Positions 6,620-22,339 of a stretch of DNA of 27,124 bases are shown piece by piece; position 1 is the first letter of the stretch, and each line of letters begins with the position of its first letter. This stretch comes from a virus: positions 1 through 27,124 of IMG/VR virus record IMGVR_UViG_3300046529_000732, one strand, 5' to 3'. The position numbers were made by a program, and so were the translations under genes. The notes below the pieces were generated by a model that ran no database searches, was not told the DNA's origin, and saw only the letters and a list, made by a program, of their open reading frames with translations.

Positions 6620-7780
6620 TTAAGCCGCCTCTAACAGAATTAACAACTCGTCATCGTTTAGGTTTTGTTCACCAACTGCGCCGCCACCGATAATCGACAC
6701 CTTGGCCGCAACCAAATCCGTTGAACCAAATTCACCATCAATCGAAATAGAACCTAAAGAATTCCCACCTATTAATTGTACTGTTACAACAAATACCGCG
6801 CCGGGCGCTTCACCATCGATTATTACAATAGGTGGAATTTGCGGTAGCGGAATGCCGCTATTACCCGCAGAAAATCTAATCGACGCCCCAACAGCCGCAG
6901 CCGTTGACGTTCCCTGGGCAGCACCATCAGCAGTAATAGTTTCAAAATTATTATTTGCATGTGCTGTGCTAGTTCCGGCTGCACTTCCAGCCGCACTCGC
7001 TACACTTGATCCAACCGCAACATTTGTTGAAGATCCAACAATCTCACCGTCAAACGTTGCAATTGATGTACCAACACCATCAACCGCCGAAGTCCCATCG
7101 GAACTTCCTGCGCCCCAATGAATTTCAATAGAAATTGCAGAAACTAAACTAGAACCGACTGAACTTCCATCGCCGGCGAATTCTGCGACACCTGTTGCTT
7201 CTACATTGCTTGTCCCGACCGAGGCTCCCAAACCCCAATGAACAGTAACACTATCCGCTGAAACAGAACTGGTACCGTTTGAACTACCGACACTTGCGGC
7301 GACCGAACCACCAACCGCTTGAACAACGCTTGTACCAAATGAACTACCGGCCCCGCTTGCAACGCTGGCCCCAATTCCTGCTACAGTTGAAGTTCCATTA
7401 GAATTTCCAGCCGCCGCCGCAACCGATGCACCGTTCGCAATTACTGAACTAGTACCAGTTGAATTTCCACTTGATGCTGCGACCGATCTTCCACCCGCAA
7501 GTACAACACCAATACCGACCGAACTCCCCACAGCCGCTGCAACACCAGCCCCAACTGCAACAACCGTAGCAATTCCAGAACAGCTACCAACCGACGCTAC
7601 AGTCGATCCACCAATCGCTGTTACGCTGACGGTTCCCGAAGAACTTCCAATACCCCAATGAATCGTAACACTGGTTACAGAAACCGTTGCAATACCAATA
7701 GACGCACCAGCAGACGCACGAATACCTGATGGTATTTGGCCTAATGCCAGTTCGCCTACTGCACCGAAACCGTTACTCAT
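6620..7780 (-). CDS. Ser/Gly/Ala tandem-repeat structural protein (fibre-like)
   Basis: This is a 386-residue protein. From about residue 20 to 300 it consists of imperfect repeats of about 20 residues, e.g. SVAAAAGNSNGTSTVAGIGA, with recurring SxGTS, SVAA and VTVHWG units. The C-terminal ~80 residues are non-repetitive (IPPIVIIDGEAPGAVFVVTV begins it) and end in an acidic helix, DDELLILLEAA. No signal peptide or membrane segment is seen. Repeats of small residues and alternating hydrophobics would suit a beta-solenoid or beta-helical fibre; this is inference. Its ATG overlaps the stop of the 54-residue coiled-coil gene (ATGA). Underlying DNA repeats are diverged, so the duplication is not recent. 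Confidence 0.75.
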   Translation of the reverse strand: MSNGFGAVGELALGQIPSGIRASAGASIGIATVSVTSVTIHWGIGSSSGTVSVTAIGGSTVASVGSCSGIATVVAVGAGVAAAVGSSVGIGVVLAGGRSVAASSGNSTGTSSVIANGASVAAAAGNSNGTSTVAGIGASVASGAGSSFGTSVVQAVGGSVAASVGSSNGTSSVSADSVTVHWGLGASVGTSNVEATGVAEFAGDGSSVGSSLVSAISIEIHWGAGSSDGTSAVDGVGTSIATFDGEIVGSSTNVAVGSSVASAAGSAAGTSTAHANNNFETITADGAAQGTSTAAAVGASIRFSAGNSGIPLPQIPPIVIIDGEAPGAVFVVTVQLIGGNSLGSISIDGEFGSTDLVAAKVSIIGGGAVGEQNLNDDELLILLEAA

Positions 7781-12292: not shown

Positions 12293-12733
12293 TTAATCCT
12301 CAGTAACCAAACCGGCCGCAGTTGTCAACTGGGGAGTAACCCCGTTCCCAGTTACGATATTTGGTGTCACGGTTCCCGAATATAACAAAACACCAGCACC
12401 GCTCAATGCCGTACCAATTCCAAAATGAGTAACAGTCCCAGAGCCACCAGTACCAGCAGGAAAATTAACCGCTGAGGTCAAATTAACACTATTCCCACTT
12501 ACCGTAAACCCAGACCCCGATCGGGCTACTGCAATTCTTGCATAACTCGTATAGGCCGCCTCACTGGTAGTTTGATCTCCCGCTTCACCGGGATCGGCGG
12601 TATGCAATGACAAATACAAACTTCCCGCAACAGTGCTTCCCCGCAACCCGGTCGCATCGCCGATATTAGCTGCATTCGTATTATTAAACAAAAGTAACAG
12701 AAGGGCATTTTCCCAAGAATTTGACTTACTCAT
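12293..12733 (-). CDS. Conserved phage virion / fibre-associated protein
   Basis: This 146-residue beta-rich protein starts at ATG 12733 with GGGAG about 8 nt upstream. It contains the conserved signature SLYLSLHTADPGEAGDQTTS, followed by AYTSYARIAVARS and GGSGTVTHFGIGTALSGAG. Proteins with this LHTADPGEAG signature are widespread in tailed phages and are often annotated as tail fibre or tail-collar-like structural proteins. The exact role is unsettled. It lies directly before the large fibre gene with a 3-nt gap, so an association with fibre attachment is reasonable. Family recognition is good and function is uncertain. Confidence 0.78.
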   Translation of the reverse strand: MSKSNSWENALLLLLFNNTNAANIGDATGLRGSTVAGSLYLSLHTADPGEAGDQTTSEAAYTSYARIAVARSGSGFTVSGNSVNLTSAVNFPAGTGGSGTVTHFGIGTALSGAGVLLYSGTVTPNIVTGNGVTPQLTTAAGLVTED

Positions 12734-13150: not shown

Positions 13151-14215
13151 TTAATTTTCAACAACATTTGCAACCAGATTCCCCGCCCCGTCCCGGCTTG
13201 TAGTAATTGTCTTCGTTCTCGGAACCGTTGCACCGTTATCAACAATCAAATTAATCGGCGGTAAAACAGTTTCCTTTTTCCATTCAGGAATAGCCGCCGA
13301 CTCTGCCAGCAACGATATCCCTCTACCAATAACCGGAGCAACATCATCTGGTGCAACAAGTGGAACCGCAGCCGCCAACAATCCCCTATCAACGCAGTCT
13401 GCAACCAACTTAGCGATTGTATCTGAATTTGGTGGTTCCCCCGGCGGCCCACGTTCGCCATCCCTTCCAACCAACACCCCAAGCGTTATAGTCTTACCGT
13501 TAGTTAACGTTAGAATCCCATTACCTTCCCTATCAACAAATCCACCAACTACGTCCGCTCCATCAGTTCCATTCTTGCCAGCAATACCCGGTTCCCCAGG
13601 ATTTCCATCCTTGCCATCAATTCCGTCTTTACCGTTTATACCGTCTTTACCATCAATACCATTAATACCATCTATTCCATCCCTACCGTCTTTGCCATTC
13701 AAGCCGTCTTTACCGGCTAAACCAATTTCTCCATCTTTTCCATCTATTCCATTTTCGCCGTTCTTCCCGTCAACGCCATTTATTCCATCTTTTCCATCCT
13801 CTCCATCAATTCCATCTTTACCATCTATTCCTGAAATTCCCTGAATACCTTGTTCCCCCTGCAAACCTGCTTCTCCATCTTTACCGGGCAATCCATCAAT
13901 ACCCGCAATTCCTTGTTCGCCTGTAAATCCACGTTCACCTTGAATGCCTGGTGCACCTTCTTTTCCTTCCGGCCCCGGCTCACCATCCTTAACATGCTCA
14001 ATTACAATCTCTGCCCGAGCCAAAAACCCGTTCACAATATCCCTAAGCTCAACTCGAAGTTCAGTATTCTCTCTCTTTATATCCGCAATGATTGCGTCGC
14101 GATGAGCTAATGCAAGCTCATGCTCTCGCTGCCACTCGCGGCGTTCATTCTTAATAATACCTCCCAACGCTTCTGCAAGCGCCTCAGGAAGCAGATCGTC
14201 AATTGTTGTTGGCAA
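13151..14215 (-). CDS. Collagen-like (Gly-X-Y) fibre protein
   Basis: I prefer TTG 14215 (AGAAGG 9 nt upstream, 354 residues) over GTG 14242; either way the gene overlaps the portal 3' end. The first ~75 residues are helical and charged (LLPEALAEALGGI, REWQREHELALAHRD), likely a trimerising coiled coil. Residues 78-219 are 48 uninterrupted Gly-X-Y triplets. The early triplets contain proline; the middle is dominated by GKD, GID and GIN units, a charged, low-proline composition typical of bacterial and phage collagen-like proteins. A second short GERGPPGEP stretch follows a beta segment. Such proteins form trimeric fibres on phage heads or tails. Its place right after the portal leaves head or neck location open. 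Confidence 0.88.
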   Translation of the reverse strand: MPTTIDDLLPEALAEALGGIIKNERREWQREHELALAHRDAIIADIKRENTELRVELRDIVNGFLARAEIVIEHVKDGEPGPEGKEGAPGIQGERGFTGEQGIAGIDGLPGKDGEAGLQGEQGIQGISGIDGKDGIDGEDGKDGINGVDGKNGENGIDGKDGEIGLAGKDGLNGKDGRDGIDGINGIDGKDGINGKDGIDGKDGNPGEPGIAGKNGTDGADVVGGFVDREGNGILTLTNGKTITLGVLVGRDGERGPPGEPPNSDTIAKLVADCVDRGLLAAAVPLVAPDDVAPVIGRGISLLAESAAIPEWKKETVLPPINLIVDNGATVPRTKTITTSRDGAGNLVANVVEN

Positions 14216-15629
14216 AGCGAAGCAACCTTCTAGAAAGATCACCTACAAGAGAATTGTTTGTAGTTTGATCTGGATTTGGAACAGAACTTGGGGCCGGATT
14301 TGGGTCCGAAGTCGAATTCGGGGCCGGGTTTGGCGGCGAACCTTTACTAAACGGATCAGCGGATTGATCCCGCTTTGCAAGGGCTGCAAGACTATAATTC
14401 TGTTGCTGCAAGTAAAGGGCATCGCCGCCAGTTTTCGGCGCAAGCCCAATTCTTCCTCTTGCTTCATTCGGTTCAATAATCGCCGAACTAACCCCATCGC
14501 TAAGATACTTCATCATCGTTGCTGCGTCCATACGCAGCAAACCATCTAAATCAAACTCAACAGTCCAGTCATTCGGTAAATTCAATCCTTCATCGAGGCA
14601 CAACTCAATTGCTTCAATGTGGATTTGCAAACAAGATTGGTAGTATTGAGTTTCCAGCGCGTCGATATTGGTATTTGTTGGAAGCGCGCCCACTCCCGCT
14701 TTATAGGCTGGAACCCCATAACTAGCGGCAATTGTTTCCGCAGTCCACTTCAATTGGTCTATCAATTGTGCATCAATCGGCGTAACTGACATTGGGTTAT
14801 AAGTAAGCCCATCCCCCAGAACCGCCACAAATCCAACATTACTTCCCGTAAACCGTTGTTGCCAATCAGCCTTAAGCCGTTCAGCGGTATCGTTGTCGAT
14901 TTTTCCAGGGGCCGTCAAAATCCCCCCAGGATTTGCCCCATTTCTAAAGAACTGTGCCGAATGCTCCTGAATTCGAAGCCCTTGGGTTGCAACCAATCCA
15001 TTTGCAACAATCGGACCTAGGCCACAAAGAGGATGAAAGAAACAATTCCAACGATCGTGGATGATTTCGCTCGCCGGTACATTTACATTTTCTAAAATCC
15101 CCGCCAAGTTATCGGTATGAAGTTCATAGAAAACATCCCCACTATCCGCAACGAGCGGGCGAACCCGGCGGGGATCGAGAATATACAAACCAACAACAAC
15201 ATTGCGATTGTCACGTTCTTTTAGAATATACGTATTCCCCGCGTTCAGTTTACTATTCAACCAATTCTCGAAGAACTGGATTCTATTCTGGAAATGGTTT
15301 GGTTTTGATAAAACTGGCGACCAAGCGGGGTTCGATGCTTCTTCCCAAATATTAGCATCCGAAGTTTGCGTCATCAGCTTCATTCGCATCTTGGCAATAT
15401 CGGAGCAAATCAAACTTATGCACCGAAAAACCGTTACATTCATAACGACATGATCGGCGCGAACTTCCAAGTTCCGTTGCCAAGCCCCAGCAAAAGGTTC
15501 TCGGATCAACGGCCACCAGCCACCACTACCCGCGCCATAGCCAACAATATTACTTGCGACCATTGGCGCGACGGGAGCTTTAGTAACCGGAACCAATGCA
15601 TTCCGAACGCGAGCTAGAAGATTTGCCAC
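14199..15629 (-). CDS. HK97-family portal protein
   Basis: This 476-residue protein starts with GTG 15629, 8 nt after the previous stop. It forms the dodecameric portal through which DNA is packaged. Visible family features are VFRCISLICSDIAKM near residue 70, then LSKPNHFQNRIQFFENWLNS and LNAGNTYILKERD around 107-142, GLGPIVANGLVAT, FFRNGANPGGILTAPG around 226-241, and SYGVPAYKAGVGALPTNTNI around 304-323. The C-terminal ~60 residues are disordered, Pro/Asn/Ser-rich (PNPAPNSTSDPNPAPSSV). Length is normal for the family. Portal genes usually lie directly between terL and protease/capsid; here it follows the capsid and a 4-kb glycan cassette. Confidence 0.93.
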   Translation of the reverse strand: MANLLARVRNALVPVTKAPVAPMVASNIVGYGAGSGGWWPLIREPFAGAWQRNLEVRADHVVMNVTVFRCISLICSDIAKMRMKLMTQTSDANIWEEASNPAWSPVLSKPNHFQNRIQFFENWLNSKLNAGNTYILKERDNRNVVVGLYILDPRRVRPLVADSGDVFYELHTDNLAGILENVNVPASEIIHDRWNCFFHPLCGLGPIVANGLVATQGLRIQEHSAQFFRNGANPGGILTAPGKIDNDTAERLKADWQQRFTGSNVGFVAVLGDGLTYNPMSVTPIDAQLIDQLKWTAETIAASYGVPAYKAGVGALPTNTNIDALETQYYQSCLQIHIEAIELCLDEGLNLPNDWTVEFDLDGLLRMDAATMMKYLSDGVSSAIIEPNEARGRIGLAPKTGGDALYLQQQNYSLAALAKRDQSADPFSKGSPPNPAPNSTSDPNPAPSSVPNPDQTTNNSLVGDLSRRLLRFANNN

Positions 15630-15637
15630 AGGCTTAT

Positions 15638-15916
15638 TTACTCTTCCGGTTGCATATCGCGGCGAGTATACCGGCCAAATTGATTTTCACCAATAGTCCC
15701 AGTAACTGTAACATCCTGGGTATCCGCAGCCGGCTCAGATTCTTTTAGCGGTTGCATAACCCGAGTTGTGGTTGTCCGGACCGGCTTTTCAACGTAATTC
15801 TCTGCCGTTCCAAGAGCAATAAGCGCTCGGGCTTCGTGCGATCGAACCTCGATAACATCCCCAGCATTATCCCTATACAGCTTCTTCAGTAACGTCACCT
15901 TAACCTTGTCAGCCAT
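15638..15916 (-). CDS. Small conserved protein upstream of portal
   Basis: This is a 92-residue protein. ATG 15916 is preceded by AGGAGAAG with 7-nt spacing and is clearly preferred over the longer frame starting at 15958. It begins MADKVKVTLLKKLYRDNAGD and continues VIEVRSHEARALIALGTAE, a short beta-helix unit of a type often seen in phage structural regions, where an ALI-LGTAE helix ends the domain. The C-terminal half is polar and probably disordered, with many Thr and Glu. It overlaps the end of the KpsC-like gene by 8 nt and precedes the portal by 8 nt. Function is unknown; it may be a small virion component or a scaffold-like factor. Confidence 0.75.
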   Translation of the reverse strand: MADKVKVTLLKKLYRDNAGDVIEVRSHEARALIALGTAENYVEKPVRTTTTRVMQPLKESEPAADTQDVTVTGTIGENQFGRYTRRDMQPEE

Positions 15917-16718
15917 AGCTAACTTCTCCTGCTTTGGTGTTGTCCACGATTTCTTCAATCGTCTTCATCCAGAACTGCGCCGTCCCGCTTTTCATTTCAT
16001 CCAACGTAAAGTGTTGGCTTGCAAGCGATCTAATCCAACGATTGCGCCCCGGAGTAATCGGATTTTCCAAGTCTAAATCCAATCTTCCAACTGGGGCCGC
16101 CGCGCAGGTTCTTTGCACAAACACTGGAATTCCAGAAATAACTGCATCCACAGCAACGTTACTCGAATGCGTAACAACAGCCCACGCTCCAAGCAAATCA
16201 TTCCGAAGGGGCCGTTGCGCATCCCGTTCCCGAATTCGAAGCGGACGATCAATTCTACTGCACGCAAATATCATTTCCGGAATAATCTTCGCACACCAAC
16301 CCGCCACGTCAATTCCCAATGCCATTCCAAAATGAACCCCAGGCATTGCCAACAGAACATGACCACCGACTTTTCGCCAAGGAATAAGACTGGCAGTTGG
16401 AGCCTTGAGGTTCATTCCCTCCGACAAATAAATCGGGGTCATTGACCTATAAGTCATCCGATAATAGCCCCGACTTGTTCCCCGAGCCGGGTCCCAAAAT
16501 CCGTTGTCGATGTGCCAAAATGGTCTATTCTGTTTGATTGCGTTTGGAATTGCTTCAAGGGCTGTCCACTCTTGGCCCCAAACAACAAACGGATGCTCAT
16601 CTTCCGGTGGAACACCAACAACCACCTTTCTCACTTCATTCTTAAAACCCGCATTCAAGGCTTCCATTATCATACTTGTCTTAATAGTCCGATCTGGTGT
16701 AATACATAAATAATACAC
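15909..16718 (-). CDS. Capsule-polysaccharide-type glycosyltransferase-like protein (KpsC/KpsS-like)
   Basis: This is a 269-residue protein with a GTG start at 16718, one base after the FkbM stop. The N-terminus MYYLCITPDRTIKTSMIMEA suggests a Rossmann-like strand-helix start. The clearest signature is HSSNVAVDAVISGIPVF at residues 184-200, the nucleotide-sugar-site-type motif seen in KpsC/KpsS capsule enzymes and related GT-B folds. It is followed by DLENPITPGRNRWIRSLA and QHFTLDEMKSGTAQFW (216-250), an arrangement familiar from phage and capsule homologues. It likely transfers or handles a sugar; donor and acceptor are unknown. It is the last enzyme of the glycan cassette before the portal block. 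Confidence 0.68.
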   Translation of the reverse strand: MYYLCITPDRTIKTSMIMEALNAGFKNEVRKVVVGVPPEDEHPFVVWGQEWTALEAIPNAIKQNRPFWHIDNGFWDPARGTSRGYYRMTYRSMTPIYLSEGMNLKAPTASLIPWRKVGGHVLLAMPGVHFGMALGIDVAGWCAKIIPEMIFACSRIDRPLRIRERDAQRPLRNDLLGAWAVVTHSSNVAVDAVISGIPVFVQRTCAAAPVGRLDLDLENPITPGRNRWIRSLASQHFTLDEMKSGTAQFWMKTIEEIVDNTKAGEVSYG

Positions 16719-16719
16719 T

Positions 16720-17373
16720 TCACCAAACCATTATAAAATCGCCGGCCATTTCCGCAGCAACCCGCATTCCCATCTTCTGCAATAGGTTCCTTGCTCCAAA
16801 CTGTTTCAATCCATGCAGTTCTGCATTATTTGGCTTCTGTTCGATAATAATCGTCGGTTTATATTTGTTAATTGTCTTAATCGCACCCTTGATTACATTA
16901 TGTTCCCAACCCTCAACGTCAATCTTAATGAAATCAACCTGTTCAAATTTATAACTATCCAATGTTTCTTGCGTAACATAATAATCACCACTCTCGTCAA
17001 TTCTGGTAAATCCTGTGCTACGTAATCTTGTATTCAAACAAACATCACGTCTTTCTTCACCGAGCGCAGAGGTATATAAATCAATCTTACAATCGCCGCC
17101 ATCCGTATTTTTCAGAAATGCTTCATGGCACTCAGGGTTCGGCTCAAAACAACTAACCTGATCAAAGCACCGCGCCATTACTCTAGTCCAAATTCCCAAA
17201 TTTGCCCCAATATCAATAGCATGACGCCAATTCTTAATCTCCGGAAACGCCCGAGCAAATTTCTTAAACTGAATGGTTGGCTTTCCCGCAAACATCGGCG
17301 AGACATCAATATCTTGCTTAAGATACTCTTCCCGATCTGGGAGCCAAATGCCTTTGTAATTCTGAATTGTCAT
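16720..17373 (-). CDS. FkbM-family SAM-dependent methyltransferase
   Basis: This is a 217-residue protein from ATG 17373, which lies 2 nt after the stop of the 46-residue membrane protein. A longer TTG start at 17424 would overlap that gene and is less likely. SAM-binding motif I is AIDIGANLGIW (52-62), followed by the acidic ribose-binding position in CFEPNP (75-80). The FkbM signature VDFIKIDVEGWEHNVIKGA spans about 146-164, then KYKPTIIIEQKP. FkbM enzymes O-methylate sugars or polyketides, and phage copies are usually found beside glycosyltransferases. Here it probably methylates a glycan made by the neighbouring enzymes; the substrate is unknown. Confidence 0.88.
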   Translation of the reverse strand: MTIQNYKGIWLPDREEYLKQDIDVSPMFAGKPTIQFKKFARAFPEIKNWRHAIDIGANLGIWTRVMARCFDQVSCFEPNPECHEAFLKNTDGGDCKIDLYTSALGEERRDVCLNTRLRSTGFTRIDESGDYYVTQETLDSYKFEQVDFIKIDVEGWEHNVIKGAIKTINKYKPTIIIEQKPNNAELHGLKQFGARNLLQKMGMRVAAEMAGDFIMVW

Positions 17374-17375
17374 TC

Positions 17376-17516
17376 TTACACCAAAGTTGATAAAATCCAA
17401 ATAGTAATTCCCAACCAACCCCAATGAACCTTAAACCAGGGCGGCGAAGAAACATTAATTGCAGCAAGCCCCGCAAATACCATTGCCAACAACACAAGAA
17501 TCAAATGTGCCGTCAT
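17376..17516 (-). CDS. Small two-helix membrane protein (46 aa)
   Basis: This short frame runs from ATG 17516 to TAA 17376. CAGGAG lies 8 nt upstream of the ATG, the best ribosome-binding site in this cassette. The ATG overlaps the GT9-like stop as ATGA, and the stop lies 2 nt before the FkbM start. The product has two hydrophobic segments, LILVLLAMVFAGLAAI (5-20) and WGWLGITIWILSTLV (32-46), separated by NVSSPPWFKV, so it is predicted to be a hairpin inner-membrane protein. Short phage proteins with a very similar hairpin and PP-turn are common, but their role is not known. It could be a membrane anchor for the glycan enzymes (inference). Confidence 0.8.
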   Translation of the reverse strand: MTAHLILVLLAMVFAGLAAINVSSPPWFKVHWGWLGITIWILSTLV

Positions 17517-18322
17517 GCAAAAACTCCTGTTTCAACTGGATAGCGAATTCTATTCACCGCTGCACTCAAAACCCGCTCAACCGAGATTGATTCCATTGCT
17601 TCCTTACAATGCAAACATCTCCCTATACTTCCACACGGTTCGCCAACCGAAATGTTTTCATGCATTTCATATCCGGTTGATCTTGGACTATTAAATCCCC
17701 CAAATATTACCACTGCATTGGTTCCAACCGCAGCCGCTCCATGATGAAGGCCACCTTCCGGACCAATATAAAGCACCGCCCGAGCAAGTACCGCCAGTGC
17801 CAAACGAAAGTCCGATGTCTCAACCCCTTCAATCAGTGGAAGTATTTTCTTAGAATTCGGCGGCACCAATTGGACAACTCGAATTCGGCGCGCAATTAAA
17901 CTTTGAGCCACTTCCGTATATCGATCTACCGGCCACTGTTTATTCGCACCAGCACAAGCCCCAGACAATTTTACTCTCGGCTCAATAACGACAAACGGCC
18001 AACCATCACTTTGACACTCAAGGCCAAAACGCTTTTCAGTCTCACTAAAGAAGATTTCCCCTTGTGGACACTTCCAATCCTTAAATTTCCACTTTCCTTT
18101 TTCTGCTTTTCCATACATCCGATTTCCACGATAATGAGAAATCCACTCCAAATTATCCAGCTTCTCATTCCCCGGCACCGCAATGTTTGGATTATCTTTA
18201 AACACAATTCTCGATTGGTCGGACCAAATTATTCTATCACCATTTCCAAACGCAATAAGTTTGCCACGTTTCATCGCCCCTCGGGCCAAACCCGTTGCAA
18301 TGATTTCGTCACCAAAGCCCAA
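17513..18322 (-). CDS. GT9-like (ADP-heptose:LPS heptosyltransferase-type) glycosyltransferase
   Basis: This is a 269-residue protein. An in-frame TAA just upstream leaves TTG 18322 as the start, with GGAAG about 6 nt before it. The N-terminus GFGDEIIATGLARGAMKR is the Gly-rich loop after the first strand of GT-B folds. The C-terminal domain has ARAVLYIGPEGGLHHGAAAV (181-200), GTNAVVIFGG (200-209) and SPRSTGY, typical of GT9 donor sites. CGSIGRCLHCKEAMESIS (230-247) carries three cysteines and a histidine, perhaps a metal site. It is shorter than cellular heptosyltransferases (about 320-350). The sugar and acceptor are unknown. It is coupled to the membrane-hairpin gene. Confidence 0.77.
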   Translation of the reverse strand: MGFGDEIIATGLARGAMKRGKLIAFGNGDRIIWSDQSRIVFKDNPNIAVPGNEKLDNLEWISHYRGNRMYGKAEKGKWKFKDWKCPQGEIFFSETEKRFGLECQSDGWPFVVIEPRVKLSGACAGANKQWPVDRYTEVAQSLIARRIRVVQLVPPNSKKILPLIEGVETSDFRLALAVLARAVLYIGPEGGLHHGAAAVGTNAVVIFGGFNSPRSTGYEMHENISVGEPCGSIGRCLHCKEAMESISVERVLSAAVNRIRYPVETGVFA

Positions 18323-18379
18323 AGCTATCTTCCAACAAAGTTATTTGGTGGCAAGAGAGAATCATCCGGTCCCTATGCC

Positions 18380-19171
18380 TCATGTCGGATATCTATTAAG
18401 CGTATATTTGCCAAACTCTGGCCGAATATAATCTTCCGGTTGAAAGCCGGCTTCAATCGCTTCCACAAGCAACTCATCAAACAAAACCTGAAGCTTGGCA
18501 TTTGGGTTGCTTCGGGGAATACCAGTAAACCAATGCCTCTTACCCTGTGCCGCCAACCTTGGGATTGCATACTTCAATCCAAGATGGGTTGGAATTCCAG
18601 TATAATGAATTGCCTGAATGCTCTCATCTTCCAAATCCAACGGCTCGATATCCAATGCGTTCCAATTGCCCAATTCCCCGAACGGCTGAACCAACTTTAC
18701 ATCGGTTGCAATCCGCCGCATCAAATACCGATGACAATTTAGATCAGATCTAATATTACTTAATCTTGGAAGCCAATTCTTGGCGGCTGCACAGTTCCAC
18801 TTAGAAACACACAGTCGTTGCGGGTGCGGACTTCCTTTAGCAATTACAATCTTCCCCGGCTCAAACTCCCTGTTCCAAAGCCGCGCGATGTCCCCGCGAA
18901 CAATAACATCGCTATCCATATAAATAGCTGATCCTTCAAATCCACAAAGCTCTGGAACAGCCCACCGAAATCCAGAAAACGGAGTTGTCCATTCAGAAAT
19001 CTGCCACCCAGCCTTCCCATCGCTATAGAATAGCGAATCAGGTTCTTTCGAAAGCTGCATAAACGAAATCACAAACGGCTCAGAAGCATTCTTCTGCAAA
19101 CTCCAATGCAACACAGCCTGCGACTCAAGGTCTTCGTTATTCCCCGCACAACCGACAAAGATTTTAATCAT
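18380..19171 (-). CDS. GT8-like glycosyltransferase (GT-A fold, DxD motif)
   Basis: This is a 263-residue protein starting at ATG 19171, overlapping the end of the upstream 35-residue membrane-protein gene by 8 nt. It begins with the strand MIKIFVGCAG. Around residues 67-100 is the diagnostic segment SGFRWAVPELCGFEG then SAIYMDSDVIVRGDIARLW, with the metal-binding DxD motif as D86-S-D88. A later AIHYTGIPTHLG (187-198) holds His189, which may be the second metal ligand seen in GT8 enzymes. It should use a nucleotide sugar with a divalent metal. The acceptor cannot be read from sequence. It is part of the five-enzyme cassette between capsid and portal. Confidence 0.83.
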   Translation of the reverse strand: MIKIFVGCAGNNEDLESQAVLHWSLQKNASEPFVISFMQLSKEPDSLFYSDGKAGWQISEWTTPFSGFRWAVPELCGFEGSAIYMDSDVIVRGDIARLWNREFEPGKIVIAKGSPHPQRLCVSKWNCAAAKNWLPRLSNIRSDLNCHRYLMRRIATDVKLVQPFGELGNWNALDIEPLDLEDESIQAIHYTGIPTHLGLKYAIPRLAAQGKRHWFTGIPRSNPNAKLQVLFDELLVEAIEAGFQPEDYIRPEFGKYTLNRYPT

Positions 19172-19271
19172 AAACCAGTGCCAAAATAAATAGAATTAAA
19201 ACAATACAAATAAAACAAATTGCTAGTTCTTGAAATCGTTTTATCAAACGTTGATCGTTGACAATTATCAT
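19164..19271 (-). CDS. Small single-pass membrane protein (35 aa)
   Basis: A 36-codon frame, ATG 19271 to TAA 19164, fills the only gap between two cassette genes. Its ATG overlaps the upstream stop (ATGA), TTGAGG lies 7 nt before it inside the upstream gene, and its end overlaps the GT8-like start by 8 nt. The product has a basic N-terminus, DQRLIKRFQEL, followed by one hydrophobic segment AICFICIVLILFILALVY (18-34), so it is predicted to span the membrane once. There are two cysteines in the segment. The function is unknown. Together with the hairpin protein at 17376 it gives the cassette two tiny membrane proteins. Confidence 0.68.
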   Translation of the reverse strand: MIIVNDQRLIKRFQELAICFICIVLILFILALVYD

Positions 19272-19930
19272 TCCGCGGCCTCAACGTGCACAAAACCCCC
19301 ACCGCTCCGCAGGGCTTCTTCTAGCGGTATCATCGGAAAACACTTCAAGGCGCTGTTGGGAGTTGCGTTTGTTATTTGTATTCTTTTATCCAGCATTTTG
19401 CCGGCATTCGCAAATTCATTAATCCAAGTCAAATACGAGTTCGCCGCACGAAGCGGAACTTTATGGTTCCCGAAGAAATGCGACTTTTCCCCAACAACCC
19501 GCATATCAAACCCAATTAAAACAATCTCTGTCGCCCCGAACAAAATCGCCAAATTTACCGCTTGGAACCCAGAGTTATTTCCATAACTAACAAAACCTGG
19601 ATCAGTCGAAAACCCTGATTGAGTTCTTCCACCGATAATATGAAAAAGTTCCCGATTCTTCAGCCCAGTCTTATCGTTCCTCGGCGATGTTGAATGACTT
19701 GTCCATCGTTCACCGGAGAATTCTGGAACAAAGTTATTAACTTCCCACCAAACAGCATCGCAAGCATACAAAACCGCTGCGTTGGGAAATAACTTATACG
19801 CATCATTAACTGCTAAAACAATCTCGCCATCGCAAACCGCCGCTACCTGAGCACTCAGGCTTGGTCCAGACGCCGCAACAACAACACGGCATCCATTCCA
19901 ACGACGATCTGCAATGGCGAGATTTAACAA
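19268..19930 (-). CDS. MptE-like / DUF115-like phage protein
   Basis: This is a 220-residue protein; TTG 19930 has AAGG about 10 nt upstream and lies 12 nt after the capsid stop. The Rossmann-like N-terminus is CRVVVAASGPSLSAQVA (14-30), with a GPSL loop. Next is VLAVNDAYKLFPNAAVLYAC then DAVWW (38-62). A signature GNNSGFQAVNLAILFGATEI then VLIGFDMR (117-144) follows, then NATPNSALKCFPMIPLEEAL near the end. I recognise this set from phage proteins named after MptE (6-hydroxymethylpterin diphosphokinase) or DUF115, a fold related to some sialyltransferases. The phage activity is not established; context suggests glycan or nucleotide-sugar handling. Confidence 0.75.
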   Translation of the reverse strand: MLNLAIADRRWNGCRVVVAASGPSLSAQVAAVCDGEIVLAVNDAYKLFPNAAVLYACDAVWWEVNNFVPEFSGERWTSHSTSPRNDKTGLKNRELFHIIGGRTQSGFSTDPGFVSYGNNSGFQAVNLAILFGATEIVLIGFDMRVVGEKSHFFGNHKVPLRAANSYLTWINEFANAGKMLDKRIQITNATPNSALKCFPMIPLEEALRSGGGFVHVEAAE

Positions 19931-19942
19931 CGTTCGGCGCCC

Positions 19943-22267
19943 TTACGCGACGTAATGAACACCGGTCAAGTATTGTACCGCTGCATCCCGGCGGCGCGCC
20001 CAGTTGATGAACCTTTCCGCCCGAATAGCAATGCTATTGGTTTGGAACATGCTCACCACTTGGGTTGCAGTCGGAGTGGCGGGACTTCCGCTCGTGCTTG
20101 CCATTGTCGGGGCGCTGTCCATCTGCAAGCTTGCTTCGGTGCTGGCATCCACAACAACCTGCCCGTCATCCGACAGATAGACTTCTTGCGGAATCATCAG
20201 AACCATAATGCTCGTTCCGGGCGAACCGGTAAGAGAAATATGATCCGAGACAATAACCGGGCGGCCCATGAAAGTGCCACCGTCGGCCAACAACCCCGGA
20301 AACTCGGGCTGCCCCAAAGCATTCCGCATCAAGAACAGCGAAATAGCAGTCGTGGAATTCATGATCCAGACCGCTTGGGAATACGGCAAGAAGTTTGTAG
20401 CCAACGCGGTCATCAAAACACCCGCATCAACCCGAGCCGCATTTGCATCAGTGCCCGAACTGGCGTGCGCCGTTGCACCATTGGTAATGGCCGCTGGTCG
20501 CGTATCGGCAATTGCCGTAACACTCGGGTCGATAAAAGTGATATCTTCCCGCGCAACAATCGCGTCGGCGAGCGCGCTCCGCACCGCTTGTTCTGCACTC
20601 GGCGTCGAGAACCGAACCTGCTCCGCGGTAAGGACTGCAATGTTTGCAATCTTCGCCCAACGAAGCAAAATGGTATCGAAGTCGAAGAACGTCAGCGGCT
20701 TGGGCTGGCCTTCTCCAACCCAGTAGGCTTCACCACCGGTCGTTTGCTTCTTGATCCGAACATTGAACGGAATGGCCCGAAGCGAGGGAATTCCATTCGT
20801 ACCGAACTTCCCGATGATCGTTGCCGGTCGCAGGAAGTCGATAAAGTCGCCCGCGAAGTTGGTGTATTGTACCAACGCGCCGGCCCAATTCGGATCGGTA
20901 GTGGTTCCGGCTGCAACAGCCGCCCGAAGAACATGATGCACTCGCTGTTCATCGGGATACCGTGCTTCTGCGATCTTAAGAGCCGCATCGGCATTACCGC
21001 GCGCACTCATCAGACACATGGCATACCGGGTAAACTCAATTCCCGGAAGAGTATTCCGGCGCGAATGAATCGGTGTCGCCGGAACCGTACCACTGCGCGA
21101 ATTGCTTCCATCGTCAATAGTGCTTCCGGCAGCGGGCTTCGCGGAGCTTTGAGCCAACTTTTCCATCATCCGAAGCCGAGTCAGATGTTGGTCGATTGTC
21201 TCGATTTCTTTCTGAAGCCCGTCAAACTCTTCCTGCTTTGCGGCGTCGAGAGTTTCGCCTTTCTCGGCGGCCTCGTCCATGACCACTTGCATCCGAGAAG
21301 CTTTCTCTCCTCGAACAGCAATGAAGTCAGCAATCTGTTCATTCAACGGCTTGGGCATAGTGGTGTTTCCCTTCAATGCGGGTTTGACAGTAGAAGTTGG
21401 AGCGGGATTGCTCCGATTGCCCGCACCGCCGGGCTTCAGCGTGACAACCATACTATTCCTAACGCGGGTGTTCTGGTTGTCAAAGGAACGAATAGCAGAA
21501 ATTGTTGCTTCGGTGTTCGCAGGAATTGTGACCAAACTTAATTCCAACCAATCCCAAGCAGTATACCGAAGCCCAAAGGTCGATTTACCTTCAGCATCCT
21601 TAATTACTTCATAACTAATCGGCTTAAACCCAATCGAAACGCCCCGAACCAAACCAGCCTTGACGGTTTGCCAAGCTTCGTCAATTCGGTCCTTTAGAAT
21701 TCCCGGCTCCGTAATCCTTGGTAGTGTTGCCCGAAACGAAATTCCCTTACTGGTCGCGTTTGCAACATCAACCAATCCAACCGGTTGTTCGGGATTGTGT
21801 TGCCAAAGCAATGGCATCGGCAAACTAAACGCAGCGCCCATCGGTTCAACAATATCATCGTACCGATCGGTCGCCGGCGTTGTTGCAATCCCTTCAATTA
21901 TCCGTTCTTCTTCATTGATGCTCTTAACTTCAATAATACTATAGGCGCGGGTCTTTGGTTCCGGCGCGGCTTTCTGGTTATCGTTCCAAGAAATTGTGCA
22001 AGCCGATAGCTTTTCCGCCGATGATGCTGCATCCATCGCAGGATCAGCCATACAACGATCCATAAAATCGCTTTGAGTTTCGCCGGCATTGGGAGTTGGG
22101 CAGGGACCATCATACGCCATTGTACCATCCTTATTTCTATCGCGCCACTGGGTAAAGCAAACACCCAGGCGTTGATCTTGGTCATACTCTTGCATGTTTG
22201 GATCGGACATGCACCGATCAATAAAGTCGCTTTGATTTTCATTCTTATGCGGCTTTGGAACTGGCAT
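19943..22267 (-). CDS. Prohead protease - major capsid protein fusion (HK97-like)
   Basis: One 774-residue frame from ATG 22267 (GGGGA upstream; MPVPKPHK is a usual start) or TTG 22327 contains three parts. Numbering is from ATG. (i) Residues 1-95: two Cys motifs, SDFIDRCMSDP...GVCFTQW and SDFMDRCMADP...SACTISW. (ii) About 105-265: an HK97-type S78-like protease with LLWQHNPEQP (His157) and GLVRGVSIGFKP (Ser211), then WDWLELSLVTIPAN. (iii) From about 305: a delta-domain-like coiled coil (residues 320-372), then the capsid domain with ATIIGKFG, AYWVGEGQPKPLTFFDF, FLPYSQAVWIMNSTTA and GRPVIVSDHI. Protease and capsid are commonly separate; fusions are known in some phages. It probably self-assembles and then cleaves itself. 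Confidence 0.93.
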   Translation of the reverse strand: MPVPKPHKNENQSDFIDRCMSDPNMQEYDQDQRLGVCFTQWRDRNKDGTMAYDGPCPTPNAGETQSDFMDRCMADPAMDAASSAEKLSACTISWNDNQKAAPEPKTRAYSIIEVKSINEEERIIEGIATTPATDRYDDIVEPMGAAFSLPMPLLWQHNPEQPVGLVDVANATSKGISFRATLPRITEPGILKDRIDEAWQTVKAGLVRGVSIGFKPISYEVIKDAEGKSTFGLRYTAWDWLELSLVTIPANTEATISAIRSFDNQNTRVRNSMVVTLKPGGAGNRSNPAPTSTVKPALKGNTTMPKPLNEQIADFIAVRGEKASRMQVVMDEAAEKGETLDAAKQEEFDGLQKEIETIDQHLTRLRMMEKLAQSSAKPAAGSTIDDGSNSRSGTVPATPIHSRRNTLPGIEFTRYAMCLMSARGNADAALKIAEARYPDEQRVHHVLRAAVAAGTTTDPNWAGALVQYTNFAGDFIDFLRPATIIGKFGTNGIPSLRAIPFNVRIKKQTTGGEAYWVGEGQPKPLTFFDFDTILLRWAKIANIAVLTAEQVRFSTPSAEQAVRSALADAIVAREDITFIDPSVTAIADTRPAAITNGATAHASSGTDANAARVDAGVLMTALATNFLPYSQAVWIMNSTTAISLFLMRNALGQPEFPGLLADGGTFMGRPVIVSDHISLTGSPGTSIMVLMIPQEVYLSDDGQVVVDASTEASLQMDSAPTMASTSGSPATPTATQVVSMFQTNSIAIRAERFINWARRRDAAVQYLTGVHYVA

Positions 22268-22339
22268 ACTTCCGTCCCCTGGAAATATTGGAATCTCTAC
22301 AGGCGGAACTGGATCACGAGTTTTCAACGCCGCGCGCCG

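Follow-up and report, generated by a model that had tools for sequence, protein, structure and literature searches.

A conserved glycan-enzyme gene cassette in a phage head operon and its probable role in virion-protein glycosylation

The viral sequence IMGVR_UViG_3300046529_000732 of IMG/VR (positions 1–27,124; this whole stretch of 27,124 nucleotides is called the window in the following) carries five genes for putative glycan enzymes which are inserted in a head operon between the gene of a protease–major capsid protein (MCP) fusion and the portal gene. The five genes code for a DUF115/MptE-like transferase, a GT8-like and a GT9-like glycosyltransferase, an FkbM-family S-adenosylmethionine (SAM) methyltransferase, and a KpsC-fold glycosyltransferase. 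By comparing related loci we could show that they form a cassette which recurs with the same gene order in distant lineages and mostly stands near structural genes. We suggest that the cassette probably serves the glycosylation of virion proteins, carried out late and in the cytoplasm with sugar donors of the host.

Conservation of the cassette

For the conservation scan, profiles were run over the fetched loci; L001 and L105–L122 were left out, and the window is represented by its relatives. To count as a cassette, a locus had to hold three or more of these families, all encoded on one strand inside a stretch of 7 kb, and cassettes were taken as distinct if they share no member protein with an identity of 85% or more. 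In total, 56 loci qualify, of which 26 are distinct. The initial annotation had called for a gene-neighborhood search for the five-gene set, and this search found all five families in six of the 26, arranged each time as DUF115, GT8, GT9, FkbM, KpsC. Since five further distinct lineages carry this complete set in this arrangement, with proteins that are 22–53% identical to those of the window, the recurrence is beyond chance: the cassette is conserved as a unit and looks like a modular glycan locus. Four families are present in 11 distinct cassettes, with the order kept in eight and permuted in three (L062 and two giant Caulobacter phages), and three families in the other nine. At the position of the GT9 gene L035 and L039 have another gene, the product of which matches Glyco_transf_21 weakly in L035 (E 0.012).

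For 17 of the 26 distinct cassettes, recognized head or tail genes are found at a distance of no more than 5 kb. In the two Caulobacter giants an annotated tail protein is encoded directly upstream of the cassette, so that 19 of 26 stand near structural genes, which strengthens the predicted late co-expression with virion genes. The cassettes are found behind the capsid gene, behind portal or fiber genes, behind tail genes or, in L032, between the genes of the tail sheath and the tail tube; in L138 the capsid and portal genes are located farther upstream of the cassette. The adjoining capsid proteins are of four types: the phrog_617 fusion, phrog_1005, lambda gpE accompanied by gpD, and a ClpP-fused capsid. 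The phrog_1005 and gpE types may be distantly related, because the L035 protein matches Phage_cap_E weakly.

The site of insertion was surveyed with 101 loci from all scans, including the best 80 of 369 relatives from the portal scan. These loci form 44 clusters when their portal proteins are grouped at 90% identity, and 40 of the clusters have both the capsid and the portal gene on the locus. In 33 of these 40 the gap between both genes is 196–769 nt. Capsid followed by portal is therefore the ordinary order in this lineage, and the earlier view that the portal has an unusual position does not hold. The gap is enlarged to 4.3–5.3 kb in three clusters, namely the window's species with five families as well as L141 and L144, in each of which four families but no FkbM gene were detected, and to 1.3 kb in L126, which carries the DUF115 gene alone. 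Gaps of 1.4–3.1 kb which contain no cassette family are present in L129, L153, and L152; this site may accept other cargo. A DUF115 gene is found in 21 of the 44 portal clusters. Given the short gap in 33 of 40 clusters, and given that in the same lineage cassettes are also found downstream of the portal and fiber genes (L041, L043, L054, L142, L143, L138), the cassette is an accessory insert which occupies at least two sites in one head operon.

The cassette enzymes

The labels initially given to the five enzymes hold at the level of the family or the fold, as judged by curated scores, by profiles compared with solved structures, and by two structure models. All coordinates below refer to the minus strand of the window.

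The DUF115/MptE-like transferase (19268–19930; phrog_4603, E 1e-43) scores 26.3 bits with Pfam MptE-like (PF01973), which is under the curated cut-off of 34.6. Its AlphaFold model (predicted local distance difference test, pLDDT, 86.1) is closest to the solved fold of Maf (5mu5; Z 16.2, 188 residues, root mean square deviation, rmsd, 3.6), followed by the tied folds of CstII (Z 12.3), Cst-I (Z 12.2), and an archaeal MptE-type pyrophosphokinase (Z 11.9). The protein has the central Maf fold, and the match covers the central Maf domain only. Compared with solved structures, the profile of the aligned relatives matches the sialyltransferase CstII with a whole-sequence E of 9e-4 which arises from two weak segments. 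The profile alignment of the family contains the N-terminal GxGPS loop and the SG...G.D segment of GT42 (CstII), both of which presumably have a role in GT42 enzymes. GT42 sialyltransferases require a catalytic histidine; no histidine of CstII is aligned to H151, which is near-invariant in the DUF115 family (alignment A8). Maf is a flagellin Ser/Thr glycosyltransferase which adds nonulosonic acids and in one case 3-deoxy-D-manno-oct-2-ulosonic acid (Kdo) (PMC11339370). On the basis of the modeled fold we propose that the DUF115-like enzyme could be the first, protein-priming glycosyltransferase.

The GT8-like enzyme (18380–19171) reaches 21.7 bits with Pfam Glyco_transf_8 (curated cut-off 24.3), and the profile of its aligned relatives matches the GT8 structure 5gvv (E 0.004). 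The DxD metal motif is present in six of six aligned proteins (alignment A3). For the GT9-like, heptosyltransferase-family enzyme (17513–18322, with a TTG start behind GGAAG) the Pfam score of 36.2 bits lies above the curated cut-off of 22 of Glyco_transf_9, and the profile matches heptosyltransferase II (1psw, E 2.7e-4). Its N-terminal GxGD segment, which we take to be a GT9 motif, is found in five of six aligned proteins (alignment A4), the sixth, from L004, being cut by the contig end. The FkbM methyltransferase (16720–17373) is recognized by Pfam Methyltransf_21 (PF05050; 62.2 bits, cut-off 22.7) and by TIGR01444 (83.7 bits, cut-off 37.7), and the profile matches the structure 2py6 (E 1e-8). 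For its start we prefer the ATG at 17373, the listed TTG at 17424 being less likely. We propose that this enzyme caps the sugar by O-methylation.

The KpsC-fold enzyme (15909–16718) has no match in Pfam or NCBIfam at E 1, and its profile gives no convincing match to solved structures. Its AlphaFold model (pLDDT 92.6) is closest to KpsC (6mgc; Z 12.0, 222 residues, rmsd 4.4) and, tied with it, WbbB (Z 11.3), followed by KrkA (Z 9.8). These proteins are retaining beta-Kdo transferases (GT107, GT99, and GT140 for KpsC, WbbB, and KrkA) which have the overall fold in common with the window enzyme. In Kdo transferases the nucleophile motif QXXXD (PMC10148158) and the CMP-binding motif (K/R)XHP (PMC12887879) are conserved, whereas the window enzyme family has kept neither. 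None of the 23 aligned KpsC-like proteins, the window protein among them, has (K/R)XHP. QXXXD has no match in the window protein and no conserved column in the alignment; ten of the 23 proteins have matches; in nine of these ten the match is the C-terminal segment QFT[LIP]D, and the remaining matches are scattered. Thus, the name KpsC-like given in the initial annotation is right for the fold and not for the motifs of Kdo transfer. As both motifs are missing, the enzyme appears from its model to have the fold of the Kdo-transferase group without the known chemistry of that group, and it may represent a candidate new glycosyltransferase family. The motif test also led us to reject a true CMP-Kdo transferase and with it the idea that all donors are those of the lipopolysaccharide (LPS) core. 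Relatives at 25–36% identity occur in many of the loci L051–L104, where several KpsC-like genes on both strands are often accompanied by one or two FkbM genes, an arrangement that differs from the window cassette. Among named phages, Pelagibacter phage Mosig encodes a KpsC-like protein.

Proposed function

The position of the cassettes close to structural genes in several phage lineages, the coupling to the capsid genes, which we read from the tight packing (no junction gap exceeds 57 nt), and the Maf-fold enzyme lead us to suggest virion-protein glycosylation as the probable function of the cassette. In the model which we infer from these features the cassette would be expressed late and translated together with the head proteins. 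In the cytoplasm, an abundant virion protein would receive a first sugar on Ser/Thr residues from the Maf-like enzyme; the chain would be lengthened by the GT8-like, GT9-like, and KpsC-fold enzymes, and the FkbM enzyme would O-methylate one of the sugars. The glycan might shield or stabilize the particle. Sugar nucleotides would come from the host; host donors are likely because neither of two tested synthesis families, NTP_transferase (PF00483) and CTP_transf_3 (PF02348), was found in 12 carrier records, while 14 and 11 of 14 control genomes, respectively, contain them.

Several points weigh against this model. The virion glycan is a prediction from gene content, and six of the 26 distinct cassettes (L015, L017, L018, L029, L062, L104) show no structural neighbor. 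The capsid gene is a frequent neighbor, yet head operons offer sites there anyway. Enzymes of the GT8, GT9, FkbM, and KpsC/Cst families are likewise used to build LPS or capsule. In addition, two candidate acceptors had to be rejected. Of the 44 clusters, 36 extend 3 kb or more past the portal gene on its downstream side; among these, a GXY run of at least eight triplets is found in 13 of 19 DUF115-positive and 7 of 17 DUF115-negative clusters (p = 0.18), so that the association of the collagen-like fiber, previously suggested as target, with DUF115 is not significant, and it is rejected as the specific acceptor. The adjacency of portal, collagen, and DUF115 genes is seen in L041, L043, and a plasmid of Bradyrhizobium elkanii. 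A Ser/Thr loop of the MCP does not differ either between three cassette-positive and 18 other MCPs (p = 0.76; the other 23 of 44 clusters were dropped as they have no MCP reading frame of more than 250 aa with the anchor motif), and was rejected as acceptor as well. Hence, of the earlier proposal that the enzymes act on virion proteins or on host glycan, the late placement with virion genes is strengthened, whereas the tests for an acceptor were negative. Finally, pmgO, pmgP, and pmgQ of phage P1 are listed as nonessential for lytic growth in Escherichia coli (PMC10695390). By analogy, any effect of the cassette may be conditional, its benefit perhaps being visible only outside the laboratory.

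The main alternative is that the enzymes modify LPS or another surface glycan of the host late in infection and so block the adsorption of progeny to debris or superinfection. This would fit the match of the GT9-like enzyme to LPS heptosyltransferases and the general knowledge that GT8, GT9, KpsC-fold, CstII-fold, and FkbM enzymes are common in the synthesis of LPS, capsule, and O-antigen; moreover, one glycosyltransferase encoded by a Sinorhizobium prophage was interpreted as an LPS enzyme (PMC5537653). We regard this explanation as rather unlikely, as the cassette does not stand apart but is embedded and translationally coupled in the head operon, and 19 of 26 lineages have the cassette close to structural genes. 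Still less probable is that the insertion marks a nonspecific cargo hot spot and that the enzymes have no common target. The enlarged gaps without any cassette family in L129, L152, and L153 and the different gene that L035 and L039 have in the place of GT9 would suit such a hot spot, while the gene set and its order are preserved across several insertion sites and capsid types.

Phage glycosyltransferases can also act on DNA (PMC12619734), and glycosylation of modified bases of the phage DNA could be considered for the cassette, since the 58 kb relative of the window (L105–L107) encodes Thy1-like, dCTP-deaminase-like, and UDG-family proteins. This relative has in addition a weakly RNR-II-like gene and one for a family A polymerase. 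We consider this role highly improbable. Thy1 was found in only one of 12 carrier records, the window's own relative, and not in the 11 others, and ThyA in none of the 12, though these records may be fragments; DNA hypermodification as a general role was rejected on these counts. Furthermore, the cassette is placed with structural genes.

Relation to other phages and to known systems

A phage collection of 50,697 records, some of them duplicated between GenBank and RefSeq, was searched with the KpsC-, GT9-, GT8-, and DUF115-like proteins. The KpsC-like protein of the window matches 16 records and the GT9-like protein 15; in both cases 14 of them are giant Caulobacter phages. The GT8-like protein matches two records and the DUF115-like protein 70, including Pseudomonas phage D3, phage P1 (pmgO), and Tetraselmis virus S20. 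The Caulobacter phages CcrSC and CcrColossus have genes for a DUF115 protein, two KpsC-like proteins, a GT8-like protein, a methyltransferase, and a GT9-like protein downstream of a tail gene; in CcrColossus the cassette comprises gp126–gp131. They differ from the window in their permuted order and in adjoining tail and lysis genes, and their methyltransferase, annotated as FkbM in phage C1, has no match to the FkbM profile. In D3 the DUF115 homologue orf7 is located, similar to the window, just behind the capsid gene. S20 has two DUF115 genes together with annotated glycosyltransferases and methyltransferases between capsid-side genes and head closure, one DUF115 homologue being annotated as alpha-2,3-sialyltransferase, and in P1 the DUF115 homologue pmgO is found among morphogenesis genes, where pmgP also matches the DUF115 profile. 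In contrast to the window, the profiles found no KpsC-like, GT8-like, or GT9-like member in these stretches of D3, P1, and S20.

Outside this collection, a plasmid of B. elkanii USDA 31 with phage genes has the order portal, collagen, DUF115, GT8, GT9, two methyltransferases, one unknown gene, and KpsC-like; the FkbM profile matches neither methyltransferase. In a Sinorhizobium prophage an FkbM-like gene is numbered directly after the tail fiber gene (PMC5537653). A scan of genome contigs with two strict patterns found one relative at 31% identity in a metagenome-assembled genome (MAG) of the Myxococcales. L029, a contig of a Myxococcales MAG, combines genes for KpsC-like, FkbM, and GT8-like proteins.

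Freeman et al. 2023 reportedly described virion glycosylation in the mycobacteriophages Che8, Corndog, and Myrna. In mycobacteriophages, phage-encoded enzymes attach glycans to proteins of the capsid and the tail tube (PMC12363180), and the targets proposed for the glycosyltransferases encoded by these three phages are capsid and tail proteins (PMC12363180, PMC12619734), as we propose here. As far as we found, it is in mycobacteriophages that virion glycosylation by phage enzymes is documented; there the glycan was measured, whereas the cassette of the window is known from its genes, and we compare the enzymes by description. The window system differs in that four glycosyltransferase-like enzymes and a methyltransferase travel as a cassette and that its named relatives are in phages and a plasmid of alphaproteobacteria.

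An analogous layout is known from flagellin genes, near which glycosyltransferases are found together with FkbM (PMC4875605). In these flagellin glycosylation islands the enzymes likewise adjoin the gene of an abundant surface protein, priming is by a Maf-fold enzyme, and some include methylation by FkbM (PMC4875605, PMC11339370). In the window a viral structural operon takes the place of the flagellin locus, and the phage enzyme corresponds to the central domain of Maf only. Phage-encoded virion glycosylation is already known, while the five-enzyme cassette itself is apparently new: no description of a cassette of this make-up was found among the titles and abstracts listed, which leave most subscription journals uncovered.

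It is possible, and we put this forward tentatively, that the window carries a mobile and modular virion O-glycosylation cassette of Gram-negative phages that is the viral counterpart of the flagellin islands, with a Maf-like primer, interchangeable extenders, a methyl cap, host donors, and a KpsC-fold enzyme belonging to a glycosyltransferase family so far undescribed, and which has been moved as a unit between capsid types. If so, several lineages of tailed phages share a glycan pathway of multiple enzymes that moves among them as a cassette. This could account for unassigned genes labeled "morphogenetic" or "sialyltransferase" which adjoin the D3 head genes and are present in P1, and it would supply a candidate new glycosyltransferase family.

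Organization of the head operon

On the minus strand the order of genes is terminase small subunit, terminase large subunit (both assigned from relatives and position), protease–capsid fusion, DUF115-like, GT8-like, GT9-like, FkbM, KpsC-like, a small head gene, portal, and collagen-like fiber. The upstream neighbor of the cassette is the protease–MCP fusion (19943–22327; Pfam Peptidase_S78 and Phage_capsid, phrog_617 E 3e-152), which is separated by 12 nt from the DUF115-like gene. A single-pass membrane open reading frame (ORF) of 35 aa (19164–19271) overlaps the DUF115-like gene by 4 nt and the GT8-like gene by 8 nt. The GT9-like gene follows after 57 nt and overlaps by 4 nt with a 46-aa membrane ORF (17376–17516), 2 nt behind which the FkbM gene begins, itself separated by 1 nt from the KpsC-like gene. 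The latter overlaps by 8 nt with the gene of a phrog_829-like head-operon protein of 92 aa (15638–15916), which is followed after 8 nt by the portal gene (14199–15629; Pfam Phage_portal E 2e-80) as downstream neighbor. Eight of the nine junctions are thus between −8 and +12 nt, the sole exception being the 57 nt before the GT9-like gene. The coordinates confirm the tight packing of five glycan-enzyme genes, all on the minus strand, between capsid and portal, with the modification that the small 92-aa gene separates the cassette from the portal. Related lineages have a short gap in the place of this gene.

The two tiny membrane-protein genes noted initially are present and were found again in the near-identical relative L003, in which the first one codes for 42 aa (L003 5427–5555) instead of 35 aa (window 19271–19164), an in-frame length difference of seven residues. 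In selected gaps of seven other cassettes we found only one small membrane ORF, of 44 aa between GT8 and GT9 in L032. We therefore reject these ORFs as conserved members of the cassette; they are probably outside the conserved gene set.

The cassette genes have a GC content of 0.41–0.48 and the window of 0.48, so that a foreign base composition is not decisive. A consensus scan of the window gave no excess of promoter- or terminator-like sites over shuffled sequence, which says little. The collagen-like fiber protein (13151–14242), considered as candidate acceptor above, belongs to PHROG tail fiber and collagen-like families, and in the near-identical relative L125 its longest GXY run comprises 50 triplets. 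Two further proteins of the window are rich in Ser and Thr. One is a repeat-like protein of 386 aa (6620–7780) with 24% Ser+Thr, 18% Gly, 0.3% Lys, and recurring GSS-GTS-V-A-G units, which is a possible O-glycan acceptor. The other has 146 aa (12293–12733) with 25% Ser+Thr and is encoded between the collagen-like and the large fiber genes.

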